From Candidatus Palauibacter poriticola (GTDB lineage: Bacteria > Gemmatimonadota > Gemmatimonadetes > Palauibacterales > Palauibacteraceae): a stretch of DNA of 64,000 nt. The stretch spans positions 1 to 64,000 of the forward strand of contig JAAXHJ010000067.1 of assembly GCA_012270965.1 (NCBI GenBank). The letters are read 5' to 3'. Positions 9,177-51,575 of this stretch are shown one piece after another (positions within the stretch are counted from its first letter, which is position 1; every line of letters begins with the position of its first letter). Below the pieces are notes generated by a model. That model did not search any database. It saw only the letters and a list, made by a program, of their open reading frames with translations, and had not been told where the DNA came from. Position numbers and translations under genes: made by a program.

Positions 9177-9596
9177 CTACCCCGCCCCCGCCGGAGCCGA
9201 GGGGCCCAGGACCGGCACCCCTGTGGGCTCGAAGTGTCGAACATTGCGCGTGACGACCGTAAGCCCGCGCTCCAGAGCCGAGGCGGCGATCAAGAGATCC
9301 GCATCCGGGCGGCCCAGGGTTTGGGAGAGGCGTCCCCGGCGCCTGGCCGTAGGACGATCCACGGGTAGGATACGGTCCCCGTACAGTCTGATGATGTCGT
9401 CGAGTCACCTTCCCAGCGCGTCGGTGAAATCCGGATTGCGGCGCCGCTGTTTCTCGATTCCCCGTTCGATCTCGCCGATGGAGACCACGCTGAGGTACAG
9501 GTCGACCGTACGCCGGCTCGCCTCCCACCGGATGATCGAACGACTGCGTTCGCGCTGACGGAGTGCCGAGAGAACGTCGGTGTCGACCAGAAACAT
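9177..9596 (-). pseudogene. PIN-domain (VapC-like) toxin interrupted by an in-frame TGA
   Basis: ORFs 9405-9596 (MFLVDTDVLSALRQRERS...EIERGIE) and 9177-9362 (GRPDADLLIAASALERGLTVVTRNVRHFEPTGVPVL) are in the same frame, separated by ...DALGR-TGA-LDDIIRLYGDRILPV. Confidence 0.8.
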
Positions 9597-9645
9597 TCAT
9601 GTGTGTACGGTGGAGTACGTCATGGGCATTGCACGAGGAGCCGAC

Positions 9646-11265
9646 ATGTCACGGACACACTCCATCATGAAGAAGCTTGGCGCCGCTCGAACGCGCGCGT
9701 TCGCCGGACCGGCATGGTCCCTCACCCTGACCTTCGCGCTCGCCGCCGCCGGTACTCCGCTCGGGGCGCAGACCTTCCAAGTCGAGGAAACCACGATCGC
9801 GCAGGTCCACGCCGCTTTCCAGTCGGGCGACCTCACCTGCGAGGGTCTGGTCGAGAGCTACTTGGCCCGCATCGATGCCTACGACAAACAGGGACCGCGG
9901 TTCAACGCGATCGCCGTCGTCAACCCGCGAGCCCTCGAAGAGGCCCGAACCCTCGACGCCGCCTTCGCGTCCGGCGGCCTCACGGGACCGCTGCACTGCA
10001 TCCCGGTCCTCCTCAAGGACCAAGTCGAGACTCGCGACATGCCGACGACCTACGGGTCGGCGCTCTTCGAGGGCTACGTGTCGGAGCGCGACGGGACCAT
10101 CGTCACGCGAATGAGGGAGGCGGGCGCTCTCATCATCGCCAAGACGAACATGGGGGAGTTCGCCTCGCGCTACGTCGGGTCGGGGTTCGGGATCATCCGC
10201 AACGCCTACGACCCGCGGCGGAACCCGAGCGGCTCCTCCGGCGGCACCGGATCCGGCGTGGCGGCGAACCTCGGTCTGATCGGCATCGGCGAGGACACGG
10301 GCGGTTCCATCCGCGGACCGGCGGCCGTGGCCTCGCTCGTCGGCCTACGTCCCACGCTTCCGCTGGTGAGCCGTTTCGGGATGATGCCGGCCAACCCCAC
10401 CACCGACACGATGGGTCCGATGACCCGCACCGTGATGGACGCGGCCATCCTCCTCGACGTCATCTCCGGCTACGACCCCAACGACCCGGTGACGGCGTAC
10501 TCCGTGGGACAGGTTCCGGACTCCTACGCGGCCGGACTCGAAGCGGGGGCGCTGGCGGGCGCCCGGATCGGCGTCATCCGCGAGCCGATGGATCGTTCGG
10601 TGGACACGACGTCGGAGGGATTCCGCCAGGTACGCGCCCAAATGGAGGCGGCGATCCGCGCGCTCCGCGACCTGGGGGCCGAGGTATTCGACGTCGCCAT
10701 CCCCGGAATCGAGCAGGTAAGCGCCGTCTTCCGCGCCAACTCCTACGAGACCGAGGAGGTGACCGACGCCTACCTCGCCGAACTCCGCGACCCGCCGTAC
10801 CGCTCGCTCGCTTCGATCCTCCTCTCCGGCCGGGTCAACCCGTGGCGGGCCGCCGGCATGGCCGATCTCCTGGGAAAGACGACCCGCGACTTGGGCTATC
10901 TCGAGTACCTGCTCGCGCGTGACCACGTCCGTGAGGATGTCATCGCGACAATGGCCGAACACGACCTCGACGCCTTCGTCTACGCCACCTTCGATCACCC
11001 GCCGGCCCCCATCGCGGACGATGTGGAGACGAACTCCGCCCCGGACGACCGCTACGCCCTCGGCGACAACCGCTCGCTGAGCCCGCTGACGGGCTTTCCG
11101 GCGCTGACGGTGCCCGCGGGATTCACGGACGACGGCCTCCCGGTGGGACTGGAGTTTTTGGGCCGCCCGTTCACGGAAGCGATGCTCCTCGGCTTCGGCT
11201 ACGCCTACGAGCAGGCGACGAACCACCGCCGCCCCCCTCCCGCGGCCCCGCCCCTCGGTGGTTGA
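9646..11265 (+). CDS. Secreted amidase (amidase signature family), full length
   Basis: KTNMGEFA...NPSGSSGGTGSGVAANLGLIGIGEDTGGSIRGPAA amidase signature; signal peptide. Confidence 0.9.
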   Translation: MSRTHSIMKKLGAARTRAFAGPAWSLTLTFALAAAGTPLGAQTFQVEETTIAQVHAAFQSGDLTCEGLVESYLARIDAYDKQGPRFNAIAVVNPRALEEARTLDAAFASGGLTGPLHCIPVLLKDQVETRDMPTTYGSALFEGYVSERDGTIVTRMREAGALIIAKTNMGEFASRYVGSGFGIIRNAYDPRRNPSGSSGGTGSGVAANLGLIGIGEDTGGSIRGPAAVASLVGLRPTLPLVSRFGMMPANPTTDTMGPMTRTVMDAAILLDVISGYDPNDPVTAYSVGQVPDSYAAGLEAGALAGARIGVIREPMDRSVDTTSEGFRQVRAQMEAAIRALRDLGAEVFDVAIPGIEQVSAVFRANSYETEEVTDAYLAELRDPPYRSLASILLSGRVNPWRAAGMADLLGKTTRDLGYLEYLLARDHVREDVIATMAEHDLDAFVYATFDHPPAPIADDVETNSAPDDRYALGDNRSLSPLTGFPALTVPAGFTDDGLPVGLEFLGRPFTEAMLLGFGYAYEQATNHRRPPPAAPPLGG

Positions 11266-11640
11266 CCGGGCGCGGGCGAGTCGAGAGGGCAAGTCTCTCG
11301 GACAGTGGTTGCGTGAAGCTACCGATGAGAGGATGGCCGCCACCCGTCCACGCAAGTTCACCTTGAGGAACTTAGCGAGTTCGACGCGGCGTGCGATGCG
11401 CGGCGGTCCGCCGTCCCTGCACCCGACTGGCCCGAGGTGAAAGCGAGTGATTTCTGAGTCCAGACTCTCCGGGATCGAGACCACGTGATCTTCGTAGACG
11501 CGACCGTCTTCACGTATCACGTCGGTCGCCAGCGTCCGCTACGTCGGGACGCGCGAGTTCACCGCTCCATCGTTGGCGCGCCATGACCATCTCGTCACTT
11601 CTGCGGAAGTAGTTCCAGGAACTGCTCAACTTCCCCGGGG
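11266..11640 (+). pseudogene. Decayed antitoxin/PIN toxin pair homologous to 14528-15201
   Basis: Remnants GKSLGQWLREATDERMAATRPRKFT (compare KKSLGQWLREAADEKLEAARPRLFT) and IFVDATVFTYHVG...HLVTSAEV (compare IFVDANVFMYFIG...RLVTSAEV), with frame breaks. Confidence 0.72.
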
Positions 11641-11839
11641 TCGCATGCGCGCGGGCTCCGTCTGACCGGCGGGCCGGAAAACGATGGGCGCCTGCGGTGC
11701 CAAAAAGATCGCACTCGCGGGCCGCGCGGTCACGGCCCCCGCGCCTCTCGAGCGAATCGCAACCGGCGGGGGGGGTTGGGTGCGGGCCGGCGTGACGGGC
11801 AGCCGTGCCAGTGTGTGGACCGGTCGGGGCTCAACCCTC

Positions 11840-12005
11840 CCCGTAGAACCGGGCGACGGCCCCGCGTCCGGGCAAGCTCGGCGCGGGGCGGGCGGGCATC
11901 GGGCGCTCTACCACCGTCCCGCGACCTGCACGGCCGACACGTTCGCGCCGGAGGCCACGAGGTTTCGGGCCATGCCGACCCGTGCGGAGTGTCCGAGAAT
12001 CCGTC
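11840..12005 (-). pseudogene. Tyrosine recombinase (integrase) C-terminal relic
   Basis: Minus-strand reading LGHSARVGMARNLVASGANVSAVQVAGRW* then, in another frame, GRGAVARFYGEG*: resembles the GHS-RVG...AGRWKS...RGAVARYY tail of tyrosine recombinases. Confidence 0.65.
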
Positions 12006-12140
12006 GCCGGGCTAAACGGATCGGCGGTCACGGGGAAAAGGGGGGTTGCGGAACCGGAGATGCGCGGAGCATTGTTGTCTCCGGAAGGGGTGGAAGACCG
12101 GCGGTGGATGCAAACCCGAACCGGGAAGGCGGTCGAACGA

Positions 12141-13193
12141 ATGCGGACTCGCACGGTTGGAATAGCTGTGCTGGTGTTGTGCGGCGTGTTGCTCGCGGCG
12201 TGTGCGGAACGGCTCGCCGTCGCGCCGGAGCCGGAGGTGAGTGCGCGGGCCGGATGGCTGGGTGACAACTTTGAGGCCATGCATCCGCCGACGTATATCG
12301 AACGCGAGCAGTTGCTCGCTCGGCTGGACGCTCCGGGCGGCGAGGAGTGGGCGGTGTCGCAGGGCTTCCGCAGGGAGTGGTTGCCGAAGTGGCGGCGGTG
12401 GCTCTCCTGGCACCTGACTTCGGAGATTCTCCCGCCGAACCGGGCGGATCCGGAGGTTCGGGCTCGATTGCTGGCCCGGCTGAACGCTCCGGGCGGTGAG
12501 GAGTGGGCGGTATCGGATGGCCTCCCCGCCGATCAAGTTGAAATGTATCGGCGGTATCTGTCCGCGCCGGAGCCGCCCCCCCTCAAGCCTCTCCCAATGG
12601 AACCGGCCGAAGCGGAGGCGGTGTTCGGAAGGCCTCCGTGGAGCGAGCCTCCGCCTGCGGATCGTTGCGAGCCCGGGCTCGTTGTGTGGCGTATCGAACC
12701 GGCACTTGATCACGTCCTCGAAACGCAGGGGAGCAAAACGGCCTTTTGGCTTAGAGCCAACGCATGGCAACAACCGACGACCCGTATGGATCAACGGGTG
12801 ATGTTGGGAATGGACATCATCGCCTTGGATATCGACACTAAAGACCTATTCTGTACGCGGGCCGTGGCTGGAGCGGCCGTGAACCAGAAGTGGCCCCGAC
12901 CAGAGGAGGACGAAACTCGCTGTGGTAGTGTAAATAGTGGGCATTGGGGGTGGACCGACACCGATTCGTGGTACGGAGAACTTGGAGGCCGGCGTTGTGT
13001 TGACCTTCCCGGCCTCCCGGTCGGCCCGGGAGGGTGTCCTCCCGGCGGCGATTGCGGCGACGGAACGGAGAACGTCGGCTCGAACGATGATGATGAGGGC
13101 TTTGACGACGATGACGACGAAGAGGAGGAGGAATGTTGGACGGTCATAACCAAACCCGATGGAACAACGGAGCTTACTCGGTGCGATGGGTAA
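12141..13193 (+). CDS. Uncharacterised lipoprotein A1 with two PGGEEWAV repeats, an acidic tract and a C-terminal CWT-x13-C hairpin
   Basis: Lipobox-like VLLAAC; ARLDAPGGEEWAVSQGFRREWLPKWRRWLS and ARLNAPGGEEWAVSDGLPADQVEMYRRYLS; NDDDEGFDDDDDEEEEECWTVITKPDGTTELTRCDG. Confidence 0.75.
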   Translation: MRTRTVGIAVLVLCGVLLAACAERLAVAPEPEVSARAGWLGDNFEAMHPPTYIEREQLLARLDAPGGEEWAVSQGFRREWLPKWRRWLSWHLTSEILPPNRADPEVRARLLARLNAPGGEEWAVSDGLPADQVEMYRRYLSAPEPPPLKPLPMEPAEAEAVFGRPPWSEPPPADRCEPGLVVWRIEPALDHVLETQGSKTAFWLRANAWQQPTTRMDQRVMLGMDIIALDIDTKDLFCTRAVAGAAVNQKWPRPEEDETRCGSVNSGHWGWTDTDSWYGELGGRRCVDLPGLPVGPGGCPPGGDCGDGTENVGSNDDDEGFDDDDDEEEEECWTVITKPDGTTELTRCDG

Positions 13194-13209
13194 GACAAGG
13201 GGGGGCATA

Positions 13210-13635
13210 ATGTCACAGAAGAGCATCGCATCTGTTCTGGGAGTGTCGGTATTCGCCGGGATCGCGACGGGTTGCATGGACGGCACCGGATTGCTTGTTT
13301 CCGATGGTCGGGGCGCGCACGAGGCTCGCGCGCCCGCTTCAAGTCAAGCGGTGGAGATCCTGCCGAATCATTACGTTGTCCATAAGCACGAAATGGGGCG
13401 AGTGGGTGATGCTCAATACATGTTGGGTACTGGTCCCTACCCTCGTGTGGGCGGGGCGATGCTCAACGGCCCGGACCCGGACTGTGCGATATCGTACGAC
13501 GACTTGGCCGACGAGGAAAAGCTGAAGGCCTACAACGCATGCGTGACGGACTTGCACAACAGCCCGGATTGCGCGGTGGTGGTGCAGGAGAACATCAAAG
13601 CGGCCCGCATGCACCATGCGCACTGTCTAGCCTAG
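13210..13635 (+). CDS. Uncharacterised small lipoprotein B1, four conserved cysteines
   Basis: Starts 16 nt after A1; signal/lipobox GIATGC; C-x18-C-x9-C-x17-C; C-terminus IKAARMHHAHCLA. Confidence 0.75.
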   Translation: MSQKSIASVLGVSVFAGIATGCMDGTGLLVSDGRGAHEARAPASSQAVEILPNHYVVHKHEMGRVGDAQYMLGTGPYPRVGGAMLNGPDPDCAISYDDLADEEKLKAYNACVTDLHNSPDCAVVVQENIKAARMHHAHCLA

Positions 13636-13640
13636 CCTAG

Positions 13641-13663
13641 CCGCCGGGGCCTATCCCCGGCGG
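13641..13663. terminator. Terminator-like hairpin after B1
   Basis: Perfect 9-bp stem CCGCCGGGG-CCTAT-CCCCGGCGG, 5 nt after the B1 stop; no T-tract on the plus strand. Confidence 0.45.
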
Positions 13664-13695
13664 TAGTAGTCGGCGACGGCCCCGCGTCCGGGGTG
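13641..13695 (-). pseudogene. Second tyrosine recombinase C-terminal relic
   Basis: Minus-strand reading GRGAVADYYRRG*; shares the exact 21 bp GGCGACGGCCCCGCGTCCGGG with 11852-11872. Confidence 0.5.
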
Positions 13696-13875
13696 CGGCC
13701 GGGGCGGTGGGGATCGTGTGGCTCACGCGGGCGATCCTGCGGTGGAGCCCCCGGAAGGTCCGGTCGACCCCCGGCGCGGCGGGGAGGCCGTCGAGGAGGT
13801 CGGCGGGAGCCTACGCCCGGGAGCGCTCCCAAACCCCGGCGTAGGCCCGACGGGTGAATGGCGCGGGCGAATCGG

Positions 13876-14464
13876 GGCCGATGCATTCGACGTCGCGATC
13901 CCCGGGATCGAGCATGTCGGCACCGTCTTCGGCGCCAACTCCTACGAGACCCACGAGGTCACCGACGCCTACCTCGCCGAACTCCGCGACCCGCCGTACC
14001 GCTCGCTCGCTTCGATCCTCCTCTCCGGCCGGGTCAACCCGTGGCGGGCCGCCGGCATGGCCGATCTCCTGGGAAAGACGACCCGCGACTTGGGCTATCT
14101 CGAGTACCTGCTCGCGCGTGACCAGGTCCGTGCGGACGTCATCGCGACGATGGCCGAACACGATCTCGACGCCTTCGTCTACGCCACCTTCGATCACCCG
14201 CCGGCCCCCATCGCGGACGATGTGGAGACGAACCCCGCCCCGAACGACCGCTACGCCCTCGGCGACAACCGCTCGCTGAGCCCGCTGACGGGCTTTTCGG
14301 CGCTGACGGTGCCCGCGGGATTCACGGACGACGGCCTCCCGGTGGGACTGGAGTTTTTGGGCCGCCCGTTCACGGAAGCGATGCTCCTCGGCTTCGGCTA
14401 CGCCTACGAGCAGGCGACGAACCACCGCCGCCCGCCGTCCACCGCGCCGCCGCTCGGTGGTTGA
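13876..14464 (+). pseudogene. Truncated duplicate of the amidase 3' end
   Basis: FDVAIPGIEHVGTVFGANSYETHEVTDAYLAELRDPPYRSLASILLSGRVNPWRAAGMADLLGKTTRDLGYLEYLL... matches 10686-11265 at a constant offset of 3199 bp; lacks the catalytic amidase signature. Confidence 0.88.
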
Positions 14465-14488
14465 CCGGATCGACATGCATCATCATTT

Positions 14489-14513
14489 TGTGCATGTGTC
14501 ATAATATTGCACA
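14489..14513. promoter_or_regulatory. Probable autoregulatory operator/promoter of the toxin-antitoxin operon
   Basis: TGTGCA-N13-TGCACA inverted repeat around a CATAAT -10-like element, upstream of the antitoxin ATG at 14528. Confidence 0.5.
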
Positions 14514-14527
14514 CTGCAAGAGGGGTC

Positions 14528-14797
14528 ATGTCGAGGATTCACTTCGTCGTCAAGGAAAGCGCCAAGGTCCGCTACCAGGCCCAGGCGGAGCGTGAGAAGA
14601 AGTCGCTCGGGCAGTGGCTGCGCGAAGCCGCCGACGAGAAACTTGAGGCCGCGCGTCCACGCCTGTTCACCGTCGAGGAACTCAAGGCGTTCGCCGCCAA
14701 GTGCGACGCGCGCCATCCCCCTGGCGCCAAGGAACCGGACTGGCCCGAGATCAAGAAGATGCTCGTGGAGACCCGGTTTCCGGATCCCGGCGTATGA
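14528..14797 (+). CDS. Putative antitoxin of a PIN toxin-antitoxin pair
   Basis: MSRIHFVVKESAKVRYQAQAEREKKSLGQWLREAADEKLEAARPRLFTVEELKAF...; ATGA overlap with the downstream PIN ORF. Confidence 0.78.
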   Translation: MSRIHFVVKESAKVRYQAQAEREKKSLGQWLREAADEKLEAARPRLFTVEELKAFAAKCDARHPPGAKEPDWPEIKKMLVETRFPDPGV

Positions 14798-15201
14798 TCT
14801 TCGTCGACGCCAACGTCTTCATGTATTTCATCGGTGGCGACCACACCCTAAGAAGAACGGAGGCCCGGGCGTTCTTCTATCAATCGCAGCAACGAGATCG
14901 ACGCCTCGTGACCTCGGCGGAAGTCCTGCAGGAACTCCTCCATACCTACGTTCGCAGAGGTGATCGGGCCTCCATTGAGGTAGCCTTCGAACTTGTGGAG
15001 ACCACCGTGGCGGAAGTTTGGCCCGTCGAGAGAGAAGATGTCGAGCGCGCCCGGTATCTCTCTACGCCCCACCCGGAACTGCAGGCCCGCGATCTTGTCC
15101 ACCTTGCCTGCTGCATCCGGCGGCAGCCCGACGACCTGATGACCTTCGACCGGGCGCTGGCCGCCGCCTGGCGCTCCCGATCTTCGCGCGGAAACCCTTA
15201 G
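14794..15201 (+). CDS. PIN-domain toxin (VapC family)
   Basis: MIFVDANVFMYFIGGDH...SAEVLQELLHTY...ARDLVHLACCIRRQPDDLMTFDRAL: PIN acidic residues and layout. Confidence 0.85.
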   Translation: MIFVDANVFMYFIGGDHTLRRTEARAFFYQSQQRDRRLVTSAEVLQELLHTYVRRGDRASIEVAFELVETTVAEVWPVEREDVERARYLSTPHPELQARDLVHLACCIRRQPDDLMTFDRALAAAWRSRSSRGNP

Positions 15202-44558: not shown

Positions 44559-45812
44559 ATGGCGAAACAGACGCTGAGTTCGGGCGGCCGCAAGGCGTCG
44601 GCCGCGGAGGAACGATACTACCGGCGCGGGCTGGGTCTGAAGAAGGAGATCCAGCCGGTGATCGATTTCGAGTACGGGAGCGACATCGTATCCCTCATCC
44701 GCGAACGGGGGAACGAACTGCGCGTGGACCGCCTGCACCTCCGTCTCGCGAAGAGTTCGGGGTTCTGCTACGGCGTCGACCGGGCGGTGGATTACGCGTA
44801 CGAGTCGCGCCGGAAGTTTCCCGACCGGCGGATCTTCCTCGTGGGCGAGATCATCCACAACCCGCACGTCAACGGCCGTCTCCGGGAGATGGAAATCGAG
44901 TCCATCTACCCCTCGGCGGAGGGCGAGTTCGACTTCACTCGGGTCGATCCCGAGGACGTCGTCATCATCCCGGCCTTCGGCGTGACCTTGCACGACTTCC
45001 GGACGCTGCGGGCGCTCGGCTGCATCCTCATCGATACGACGTGCGGGTCGGTGCTCAACGTATGGAAGCGGGTGGAGTCGTACGCTCGCGATGGGTTCAC
45101 GTCGGTCATCCACGGCAAGTACCGTCACGAGGAGACGCGCGCCACGAGTTCCCAGGTGAGGAAGTACGAGGGGGGGAAGTTCCTCATCGTGCGGGACATG
45201 GCGCAGGCGGAGGCGGTCTGTGCGTACATCCGCGGGGACGGGGACCGCGCCGCTTTCGTGGAGGCGTTCGAACCGTCCATGTCGGAGGGGTTCGATCCGG
45301 ACCGGGACCTCGGCAGGATCGGCGTCGCGAACCAGACGACGATGCTCGCCTCCGAATCGCTCGACATCGCCGCCCGGCTGGGCGAAGCGGTCTTAGATCG
45401 CTGGGGCCAGGAGCAGGTTGCGGAGCGGTTCCGGAGTTTCGATACGATCTGCTCGGCCACGCAGAAGCGCCAGGATGCCGTCAAGGAGATGATGCGGGAT
45501 CCGCCCGATGTCATGGTCGTGATCGGCGGCTACAACTCCTCGAACACCGTACAGTTGGCGCACCTCTGTTCGCTGCACGCGACGACGTATCACATCGAGG
45601 ACGCCGCCTGTATCGATACCGTGAGGGGCCGCATCAGTCACAAGCGGATCGGCGGCGACGAGATCCTGACCACGAACGATTGGCTTCCGGCGGGCGACGT
45701 GACGATCGGCATCACGGCCGGCGCGTCGACCCCGAACTCGAAGCTCGGCGAGGCCGTGGAGCGGATCGTCCGCGGTGCCGGTTACGACCCCTCCGGTCTC
45801 CTGCGCCACTGA
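44559..45812 (+). CDS. ispH: 4-hydroxy-3-methylbut-2-enyl diphosphate reductase, long type
   Basis: KSSGFCYGVDRAVDYAYE; VGEIIHNPHVNGRL; IDTTCGSVLNVWKRV; IGITAGASTPNSKLGEAVERI. Confidence 0.94.
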   Translation: MAKQTLSSGGRKASAAEERYYRRGLGLKKEIQPVIDFEYGSDIVSLIRERGNELRVDRLHLRLAKSSGFCYGVDRAVDYAYESRRKFPDRRIFLVGEIIHNPHVNGRLREMEIESIYPSAEGEFDFTRVDPEDVVIIPAFGVTLHDFRTLRALGCILIDTTCGSVLNVWKRVESYARDGFTSVIHGKYRHEETRATSSQVRKYEGGKFLIVRDMAQAEAVCAYIRGDGDRAAFVEAFEPSMSEGFDPDRDLGRIGVANQTTMLASESLDIAARLGEAVLDRWGQEQVAERFRSFDTICSATQKRQDAVKEMMRDPPDVMVVIGGYNSSNTVQLAHLCSLHATTYHIEDAACIDTVRGRISHKRIGGDEILTTNDWLPAGDVTIGITAGASTPNSKLGEAVERIVRGAGYDPSGLLRH

Positions 45813-45960
45813 CACCGCCGCACTCAAGACCGCACACGCTCGGCCCATGATCTGCGCGCACCCGCCTCATGCTCGTTTCTCACAGAACAAGACTCGGCCT
45901 GCCTTTCCTCCGGCGTCAGGCTACTCTCGTCGTTCGACCCGTTTCGGAGGAGGAGGAACC

Positions 45961-46341
45961 ATGCAGCCGAACCGTCGGAGGGCGCTAGGGATCTTGCTCG
46001 TGATTGGGCTAGCTGCGGCGTGTGCCGACCGCTCGGGGCCCGTCTCGGACCCGGAGCCAATACTGCCGACGCTAGCGGAAGTGTCTCCACACCCCGATCG
46101 ACCGGGCCGCGGCAGGTTTCGTCCTACCGGTCCGAACGCGGACGAGATCCGTCAGAAGCTCCGTGAGATCGTGGAGGGTCCCGGCGGTGTGGAGTGGGCG
46201 GTAGACAATGGTATGCGACCGGATCGGGTGGCCGATTACCGGCGCTACTTGGCGGATCCGGAATCGGAGTGCTGGACCATGCAACTCAATCGCGATCGCA
46301 CGTTTCAGATTGTCTCATGTGTACCTAAGCACAGGAGGTAG
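45961..46341 (+). CDS. Uncharacterised lipoprotein A2 with one PGGxEWAV repeat and CWT-x13-C hairpin
   Basis: Lipobox IGLAAAC; LREIVEGPGGVEWAVDNGMRPDRVADYRRYLADPESECWTMQLNRDRTFQIVSC; paralogous to A1. Confidence 0.75.
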   Translation: MQPNRRRALGILLVIGLAAACADRSGPVSDPEPILPTLAEVSPHPDRPGRGRFRPTGPNADEIRQKLREIVEGPGGVEWAVDNGMRPDRVADYRRYLADPESECWTMQLNRDRTFQIVSCVPKHRR

Positions 46342-46348
46342 GAACTTC

Positions 46349-46760
46349 ATGTCGAGGAAGATGATGGTTTGTCGTGCTCGGTGCCGCGCTGTTCGGGTGT
46401 TCGGAAGCGCAAGCGCCGATGGAAATCACGGATTCACCGGAGGCCAAGATCACGGCCATTGAAATCGAGACTCGTCGCCCGGGACAATACGTTATCGTCA
46501 AGGGTCCCTACGCGTCGTCGACGCCGTACGAGATGGGAACCGGCCCCTTTGCCAACATGCACGCCGTGCCGCTGCCCGGCGTTTTCGCAGATGGACCCGA
46601 CCCCGAGTGCTCCATCGCTGAAGGTGACGTTGATGACGACGAGGCGTTCAGTGCTTGGAACAAATGTGTTCAGGCTCTCATGGACGACGATAGCTGTGGT
46701 ACCGTGATATTGGAGTACATCAAGGCGGCGAAGACGTACCACGCACACTGCTTGGAGTAG
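46349..46760 (+). CDS. Uncharacterised small lipoprotein B2, paralogue of B1; N-terminus apparently frameshifted
   Basis: AGGAGGT 9 nt upstream of ATG 46349 (MSRKMMVC), but the conserved body (VLGAALFGCSEAQAP...IKAAKTYHAHCLE) is in another frame from GTG 46374. Confidence 0.68.
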
Positions 46761-46974
46761 AGGCCGCCGGGCACCGGCGCAAGGTTTGATCTGAACGGCT
46801 GTACGCGCACGGTATTCGCTTGACACACGACCCCGCCTAGGCCACCCCATCCGATGGCACTGATTCGATGTCCGCCCCTTCACGCGGCATGCGATCACGC
46901 GTCACGTTGGGGGAGCCGGTCGAGGGCATTATCCGGGGTGTCGACGGCGATCCAACCAATTCACTGCGCCAACT

Positions 46975-47457
46975 GACACGCATGGCGGGTCGGGCCGACA
47001 GCAGCTTCACGCCGTGAAGTTCCGCTGCGGTTCGATCGAGGGTGGAGAGGCTGTCGGCGCGGGATCCGCAGCGGCTAGGATCATCCGATCCGCGAACTCG
47101 GCGCCTCCCATGCGATAGTCGCTTGCGGACCTCGCGACGTCGTCTGCCGATTCGACCACAAGCCCCCCCGTCACCACGAGCTGTTCTAGGACTGCTGAGA
47201 TTTCGCCCCGCCCAAGACCGTCGGCTCTCTCCAGCACCCAGACGAGTTTGAGGATGACTTCCCTCCGCACATAGCCCGGCTGGTCGGGCGAGAGCGTTCC
47301 CAGCAGGGAGCGGGCAACCTCGGCCTGTCCGGCATCGTCGCGCACGAGGTAGCGCACCAAGCCGTTCGGGTCGAGTGCGATCATCCGTCGCGGGCCGCCT
47401 CGCCAACGCATTGGGCAGCGTCGCCTGCCCCTTCTTCGTGAGTGTGGATTCGATCAT
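46975..47457 (-). pseudogene. Decayed VapBC-type locus
   Basis: MIESTLTKKGQATLP then truncation; PIN-like MIALDPNGLVRYLVRDDAGQAEVARSLL...REVILKLVWVLERA...GGAEFADRMILAAA then frame loss; STLDRTAAELHGVKLL in another frame. Confidence 0.75.
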
Positions 47458-47473
47458 GGTCTACGCCTTCCGC

Positions 47474-50115: not shown

Positions 50116-50946
50116 ATGGAAGGCGGGGCGGGCGGCGTCGGGCGCACCGAGGAGGTTGTGGATCGGGCCTCGGCGACGCTCGCGAGCGCCATGCTGGCCA
50201 CGCTGGACCGGGACTCGCGGGCGCTGGGCGACGGCGACCCTCTCCCGCCGCTCTTTCACTGGATGTACTGTCGGGAATTGGCGCCGGGCCGTCAGCTCGA
50301 CATCGACGGCCACCAGAAACGCGGCGACTTCCTGCCGGCACTGCCGTTCTCCCGCCGGATGTGGGCCGGCGGACGGATCGCCTTCGAAGGGAGCCTGCGG
50401 ATCGGAGAGCGCATCCGACGCCGCTCGACCGTCCGCTCGGTCACGCCCAAGAAGGGGCGCAGCGGGCCGCTGGTGCTCGTCGCGGTCGAGCACCGGATCT
50501 CGGGCAACGACGGCGAGATCGTCGAAGAACAGGACTTGGTCTTCCTCGAGCGGCCTACGGAACCGCTGGTGCTGCCGGACGTTTCGGCCCCCGAGGACGA
50601 GATGGAGTGGTCGGAGTCCGTGACGCCGAACGCCGCCGTGCTGTTCAGGTTTTCCGCGCTCACCTTCAACGCGCACCGCATCCACTACGACCGGGACTAC
50701 GCGTGTGATGTCGAGATGTATCCCGATCTCGTCGTGCACGGGCCGCTTACGGCGCTGCTCCTCGCGGATCTCGCGACCCGGCGCTCCGGGCGGGCCCTGC
50801 GAACACTGACCTTCCGGGCCCGCCGACCCATGTTCGTCGATCGGGCGATCACCCTTCAGGGAAGGCCGTCGGGGGACGGCGTCGATCTGAGGGCGCTCGA
50901 CGAAACGGGCGCCGTCGCGATGTCCGCCCGCGCCGGGCTGGCCTGA
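50116..50946 (+). CDS. MaoC/HTD2-like hydratase (mesaconyl-C4-CoA hydratase-like)
   Basis: GDPLPPLFHWMYC; LPFSRRMWAGGRIAFEG; LFRFSALTFNAHRIHYDRDYA; VVHGPLTALLLADL. Confidence 0.86.
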   Translation: MEGGAGGVGRTEEVVDRASATLASAMLATLDRDSRALGDGDPLPPLFHWMYCRELAPGRQLDIDGHQKRGDFLPALPFSRRMWAGGRIAFEGSLRIGERIRRRSTVRSVTPKKGRSGPLVLVAVEHRISGNDGEIVEEQDLVFLERPTEPLVLPDVSAPEDEMEWSESVTPNAAVLFRFSALTFNAHRIHYDRDYACDVEMYPDLVVHGPLTALLLADLATRRSGRALRTLTFRARRPMFVDRAITLQGRPSGDGVDLRALDETGAVAMSARAGLA

Positions 50947-51229
50947 CGAGCGGACGCCGACCGGATGCCGAACGTCCGGCAGCCCGGCCGTCCGGAAAAG
51001 TGCTCGCGGGGCGTGTCCGCCGGGCTCGCGTCGGCCCGGTTCCGGGCGCTCCGGTGCCGTTGCGGCTCGCGGTCGAGGACCGTGCTCTCGACCCCGTTCG
51101 AGCGGCGCGGGCATGTCGCGTCGCCGTGACGGTCCGGAAGTTCCAGGACGGGCTCTTCCCGCGAGGCGGAAGCGCCGGCGGCACTGGCCCGCGATCCGGC
51201 GGACGCTCCTGCGGATGGCCGGCCCCGAT

Positions 51230-51575
51230 GCGGAGCTCGGCGAACAACTCCCTCACCTTGCGGTGCCCGTGGGTCGAGTAGTTGTTCAGGATGATGTTGA
51301 TCCGCAGGTTCCTCGGCACCTCCCCCGCCGCCTTGCGGAGGAGCCGGAGAAGCTCTTGGTGGGGGTGCCTCCGGTAGGTCTCGGAGACCACCCCGCCCGA
51401 GGCCACGTCCATTGCCACGGAGAGCGACGTGGTGCCGTGGCGCTTGTAGTCGTGCGTCATCGTCCCGCAGCGCCCCTTCTTCAGCGCAGCCCCGGCTGCG
51501 TCCGGTCGAGCGCCCAGACCGAGCTCTTCTCGTCGAAGCTGAACACGACGGCGTTGTCCGGCGGGTCAAGGTACA
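51230..51575 (-). pseudogene. IS630-family transposase fragment
   Basis: [28 protein letters not shown] then frame change to GTMTHDYKRHGTTSLSVAMDVASGGVVSE...IILNNYSTHGHRKVRELFAEL; both ends missing. Confidence 0.82.

Follow-up and report, generated by a model that had tools for sequence, protein, structure and literature searches.

Two adjacent lipoprotein genes at positions 12141-13635 of a Candidatus Palauibacter poriticola contig raise the question whether they form a conserved unit of the cell envelope or an accessory addition to this genome, and what such a pair could do. An earlier note on this DNA had taken them for a candidate undescribed system. In the following, the window denotes the whole stretch of 64,000 nucleotides that was analyzed.

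Gene pairs, paralogues and protein families

The first gene, A1 (12141..13193, + strand), encodes a lipoprotein of 350 amino acids with the lipobox LAAC, as delimited by its open reading frame, lipobox, repeat alignment and AF2 model. It combines two repeat units of three helices each with a long middle part of low confidence, a run of acidic residues and, at the C-terminus, a CWT...C hairpin. After a spacing of 16 nt on the same strand follows B1 (13210..13635, +), a small lipoprotein of 141 amino acids (lipobox ATGC) whose C-terminal domain (residues ~88-141) carries four conserved cysteines and the motif HAHC. Open reading frames and lipoboxes thus agree with the gene order that was first described, and so does its recurrence at 45961-46760, consisting of A2 (45961..46341, +), a short paralogue that has a single repeat unit besides the CWT...C tail, and B2 (46374..46760, +). 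Alignments and gene order likewise bear out the paralogy of both genes and their same-strand coupling at two places. The start region of B2 is frameshifted relative to its natural ATG (46349), which lies one base off the frame of the remaining ORF, due to either a frameshift or a sequencing error. Since B2 as assembled lacks a complete signal peptide, the second pair may be decaying.

In total, the 3.6-Mb genome contains three A and three B genes. A3 (C32:743-1318, - strand) has two repeat units and can be read through only if the frame is changed twice; no B was found beside it in the 565-740 bp readable downstream up to the contig end. B3 (C22:93453-93929) is solo and intact, with a divergent MBL-fold hydrolase gene upstream, a BNR-type gene downstream and no A. 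A fourth B, B4, again solo and intact, occurs in a genome from a different family of the same class (G096). An SPII-type signal with a lipobox cysteine can be read directly in A1, A2, A3, B1, B3, and B4 and, only via a one-base frame change, in B2, so that all seven genes feature a lipobox.

The repeat unit measures about 42 amino acids with 12 invariant columns and is present twice in A1 and A3 and once in A2. In A1, the units were located by repeat alignment at 12291..12416 and 12441..12566 (both +) and are 86% identical over 58 nt at the DNA level. Two repeats had been recognized in A1 before, which is correct, although their length had been given as ~30 amino acids. A1, A2, and A3 have the N-terminal lipoprotein and repeat part in common and diverge further on; between A1 and A2, the similarity covers the signal region, a single repeat unit and the CWT...C tail. 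B2 and B3 align with B1 over their length at 34-39% identity, including the four cysteines and the terminal HAHC, and these residues are invariant in B1-B4 despite an overall identity down to 26%. B1 had also been called Cys-rich; it is a lipoprotein, but with four conserved cysteines besides the lipid-bearing one it is not especially rich in them.

That these are spurious ORFs in GC-rich DNA is hardly conceivable. Little beyond the missing family matches would speak for it, and it was ruled out by the signal peptides, repeats and cysteine patterns conserved across the paralogues. Moreover, the B paralogues differ from one another at 0.59-0.74 of third codon positions vs. 0.31-0.56 of first and second positions, and this excess of third-position change supports that the B genes are coding. 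The recovery of B4 in another family at E 3.3e-7, by a profile built without B4, also argues against spurious frames.

Neither A nor B belongs to a named family, as the earlier note had supposed: searches against four profile libraries (Pfam, NCBIfam, PADLOC, and PHROGs) gave no match above chance, and those against PDB sequences only chance matches. A similarity of A2 to Rz-like spanins (E 0.031) was rejected because it is restricted to the signal region. The AF2 models, calculated from shallow alignments of 3-4 sequences, are mostly of low confidence. For B1, a moderately confident beta-alpha-beta-beta domain was predicted at residues 91-141 (pLDDT about 62-81), and for A1 helices at 52-93 and 104-141, corresponding to the two three-helix units (pLDDT up to 90), as well as strands at 333-337 and 343-347; confidence is low outside these parts. 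Foldseek searches of the A1 and B1 models against PDB, and of B1 also against BFVD, revealed no match at E <= 0.001. Both families are undescribed, although accessory orphan lipoproteins as such are nothing unusual.

Inserted DNA and distribution of the genes

Both pairs reside on inserted, compositionally foreign DNA, which had escaped the earlier note. The stretch 11634..13871 with A1-B1 has no counterpart in six same-genus genomes, where the flanking genes are contiguous and an amidase gene is followed by vapBC-like genes and then by a BNR gene. Similarly, the segment around A2-B2 (approximately 45803..47470) is missing downstream of ispH in the six genomes, in which ispH is directly followed by the gene at 47471. 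The flanks of the B3 locus are contiguous, separated by tens of bp, in 12 of 14 genus-mates examined and lie about 660 bp apart here. Codon usage is foreign in all six A and B genes: their codon adaptation index (CAI) amounts to 0.42-0.57 vs. 0.60-0.77 in a set of 15 further genes from the window, and their GC3 to 0.66-0.77 vs. about 0.87 for the neighbors. The source of the inserts is therefore probably outside this lineage.

The A1-B1 insert is bordered by a copy of an amidase 3' end (13874..14468, +) which is 95% identical to its source, the amidase gene at 9580-11265. A decayed vapB-like piece at 11265-11529 matches the vapB region 14507-14838 (about 69%), and a duplicated amidase-vapBC block (9580-15201) surrounds the insert. 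Besides, a 50-bp repeat of 82% identity flanks A1-B1 (11825-11901 and 13645-13716) and has no further copy in the genome at E <= 0.001; its two copies possibly delimit the inserted DNA. The second insert holds, next to A2-B2, a weak PIN-domain ORF (47007-47411, - strand; PF01850, E 0.02), and the ORF upstream of it begins antitoxin-like, which suggests a toxin-antitoxin remnant. Further downstream lies a transposase-like fragment (50849-51460, - strand), whose DDE_3 match (E 0.0036) falls short of the curated cut-off and which is probably an IS remnant.

With regard to integron cassettes, whose marks would be an attC site or an integron integrase nearby, a hairpin occurs only after B1 and a weak recombinase-like fragment near A3. 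The latter, at the start of the A3 contig (L020:2-220), 0.5 kb from A3, resembles the C-terminus of a tyrosine recombinase (PF00589, E 0.011, below the cut-off). The hairpin (13640..13663, +) lies just past the B1 stop and had been noted before as strong; it is present with a folding energy of -31.4 kcal/mol, a stability also reached by 15 of 200 shuffles, but a T-tract is lacking, and none was found 3' of B2. Rfam gave no match at 11500-14500. Neither terminal repeats nor an integrase could be firmly tied to the inserts, and no end sequence is shared among them. An integron-like or terminal-repeat origin accordingly found no support, the inserts being alike only in their A and B coding sequences, apart from the 50-bp repeat around A1-B1.

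Searches of 16 same-genus genomes yielded neither A nor B. Among 35 genomes of the family and about 390 of the phylum, no other A was detected and B4 was the only other B; matches in G014, G260, G436, G060, and G392 as well as weak repeat matches were inspected and judged to be due to chance. Nothing was returned by pattern searches through the contigs of GTDB r220 and through viral contigs, nor by tblastn against phages and plasmids. Given the large number of sister species without A and B, gain in this lineage is more probable than repeated loss. The notion of a conserved A-B unit is not supported by this distribution, since only two adjacent cases exist, A3, B3, and B4 are solo, and the pairs are absent from the 16 same-genus genomes. 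Non-neighboring homologues, which the earlier note would have counted against a unit, thus occur for part of the family, while A1-B1 and A2-B2 are adjacent. The pairing is consequently real, but not obligatory.

This mixed picture would also fit A and B being unrelated cargo lipoproteins which share inserted pieces without any joint function, a reading that is somewhat unlikely but deserves serious consideration. The solo A3, B3, and B4 comply with it, as does the location of B4 in an amine dehydrogenase operon without an A, and co-duplication of one ancestral pair would give the repeated order in the absence of joint function. Nevertheless, two diverged pairs have retained order and strand, and two such rare families would hardly become neighbors by chance in a genome of 3.6 Mb.

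The operon in question encodes a quinohemoprotein amine dehydrogenase (qhp; L027:2832-11766 in G096), with clear alpha subunit, gamma subunit and radical SAM maturase genes; qhpB and qhpG score below curated cut-offs and were named partly by place. B4 is located between qhpB and the ABC exporter gene, and its GC3 is lower than that of qhpA, qhpD, qhpG, and the ABC gene. While B4 thus sits in such an operon as known from the literature (PMC7876137), a separate gamma-subunit gene (L027:6376-6780) already belongs to this operon, and B4 matches none of the NCBIfam qhp models. Around B1-B3, which stand in other contexts, qhp genes were not observed. A function of B in amine dehydrogenase maturation was rejected as a general role because the neighbors of the other B copies are unrelated.

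Possible roles at the cell envelope

We consider it about an even bet that A and B are accessory envelope lipoprotein genes, recently acquired by horizontal transfer and inserted between genes at several sites in this one lineage, and that the pair acts as a surface binding module. Accordingly organized genes of one pair would be co-transcribed, and their products exported by Sec and lipidated. Both proteins would be held in the outer membrane, because no aspartate follows the lipid cysteine in any copy. A may form an arm of one or two three-helix repeats with a variable outer part that is closed by the small C-terminal hairpin, and B a flexible linker bearing a small domain of the beta-alpha-beta-beta type with two stabilizing disulfides, in which the invariant HAHC could be structural or metal-binding. 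Side by side at the cell surface, A and B would then constitute a strain-variable binding module, with B possibly able to act alone. Such a strain-variable surface module, with putative joint action at the outer membrane, is the plainest reading of these genes.

Small periplasmic lipoproteins of the lysozyme-inhibitor type, MliC/PliC, resemble B in being small and disulfide-bearing. In contrast to these, B matches no solved structure by sequence or fold and is predicted to adopt a beta-alpha-beta-beta arrangement instead of a beta barrel.

Alternatively, A could act as a lipoprotein effector, exposed on the envelope or transferred from one envelope to another, and B could be a small periplasmic lipoprotein neutralizing it, a reading that we regard as rather improbable. 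The accessory, inserted nature of the genes would be in line with such a function, and so would the common N-terminal lipoprotein and repeat part of A1, A2, and A3 with its differing remainder. Furthermore, B3 and B4 are intact alone, and the sole A without a B, A3, carries frameshifts, which would be expected were A harmful when unpaired; still, the frameshifts of A3 could be sequencing errors in G runs, B2 is damaged next to an intact A2, and the counts are tiny (3 A, 4 B). A precedent exists in the SitA lipoprotein toxins of myxobacteria with their paralogous accessory cassettes (PMC5562445), in which SitB, carrying a type I signal, precedes SitA, and SitI1 is a SUKH-like immunity protein (PMC5562445, PMC8546572). 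The likeness is that the cassettes are accessory, paralogous and made up of two or three genes, with a type II lipoprotein that has a common N-terminal part and a variable remainder (PMC5562445, PMC8546572). Unlike SitA, A is devoid of a nuclease domain match; no toxin domain of this type was recognized in A1 or A2 with Pfam, NCBIfam or PADLOC. The second gene, moreover, follows A and encodes a lipoprotein, which SitI proteins are not described to be. The most far-reaching version of this idea, an undescribed mobile pair in which the repeat arm would serve to deliver A at or between outer membranes while B, with its disulfide-pinned HAHC domain, would shield the producing cell and persist in solo copies as orphan immunity, seems improbable indeed. 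To our knowledge, a lipoprotein antagonism system has not been reported in this phylum, and an effector-protector function, if true, would add one to the Gemmatimonadota.

On present evidence, A-B is another accessory lipoprotein pair. As a clear-cut example of a single lineage acquiring undescribed lipoprotein families through small inserts, while the sites are empty in many sister species, it offers a good opportunity to study the arrival and spread of ORFan envelope genes.
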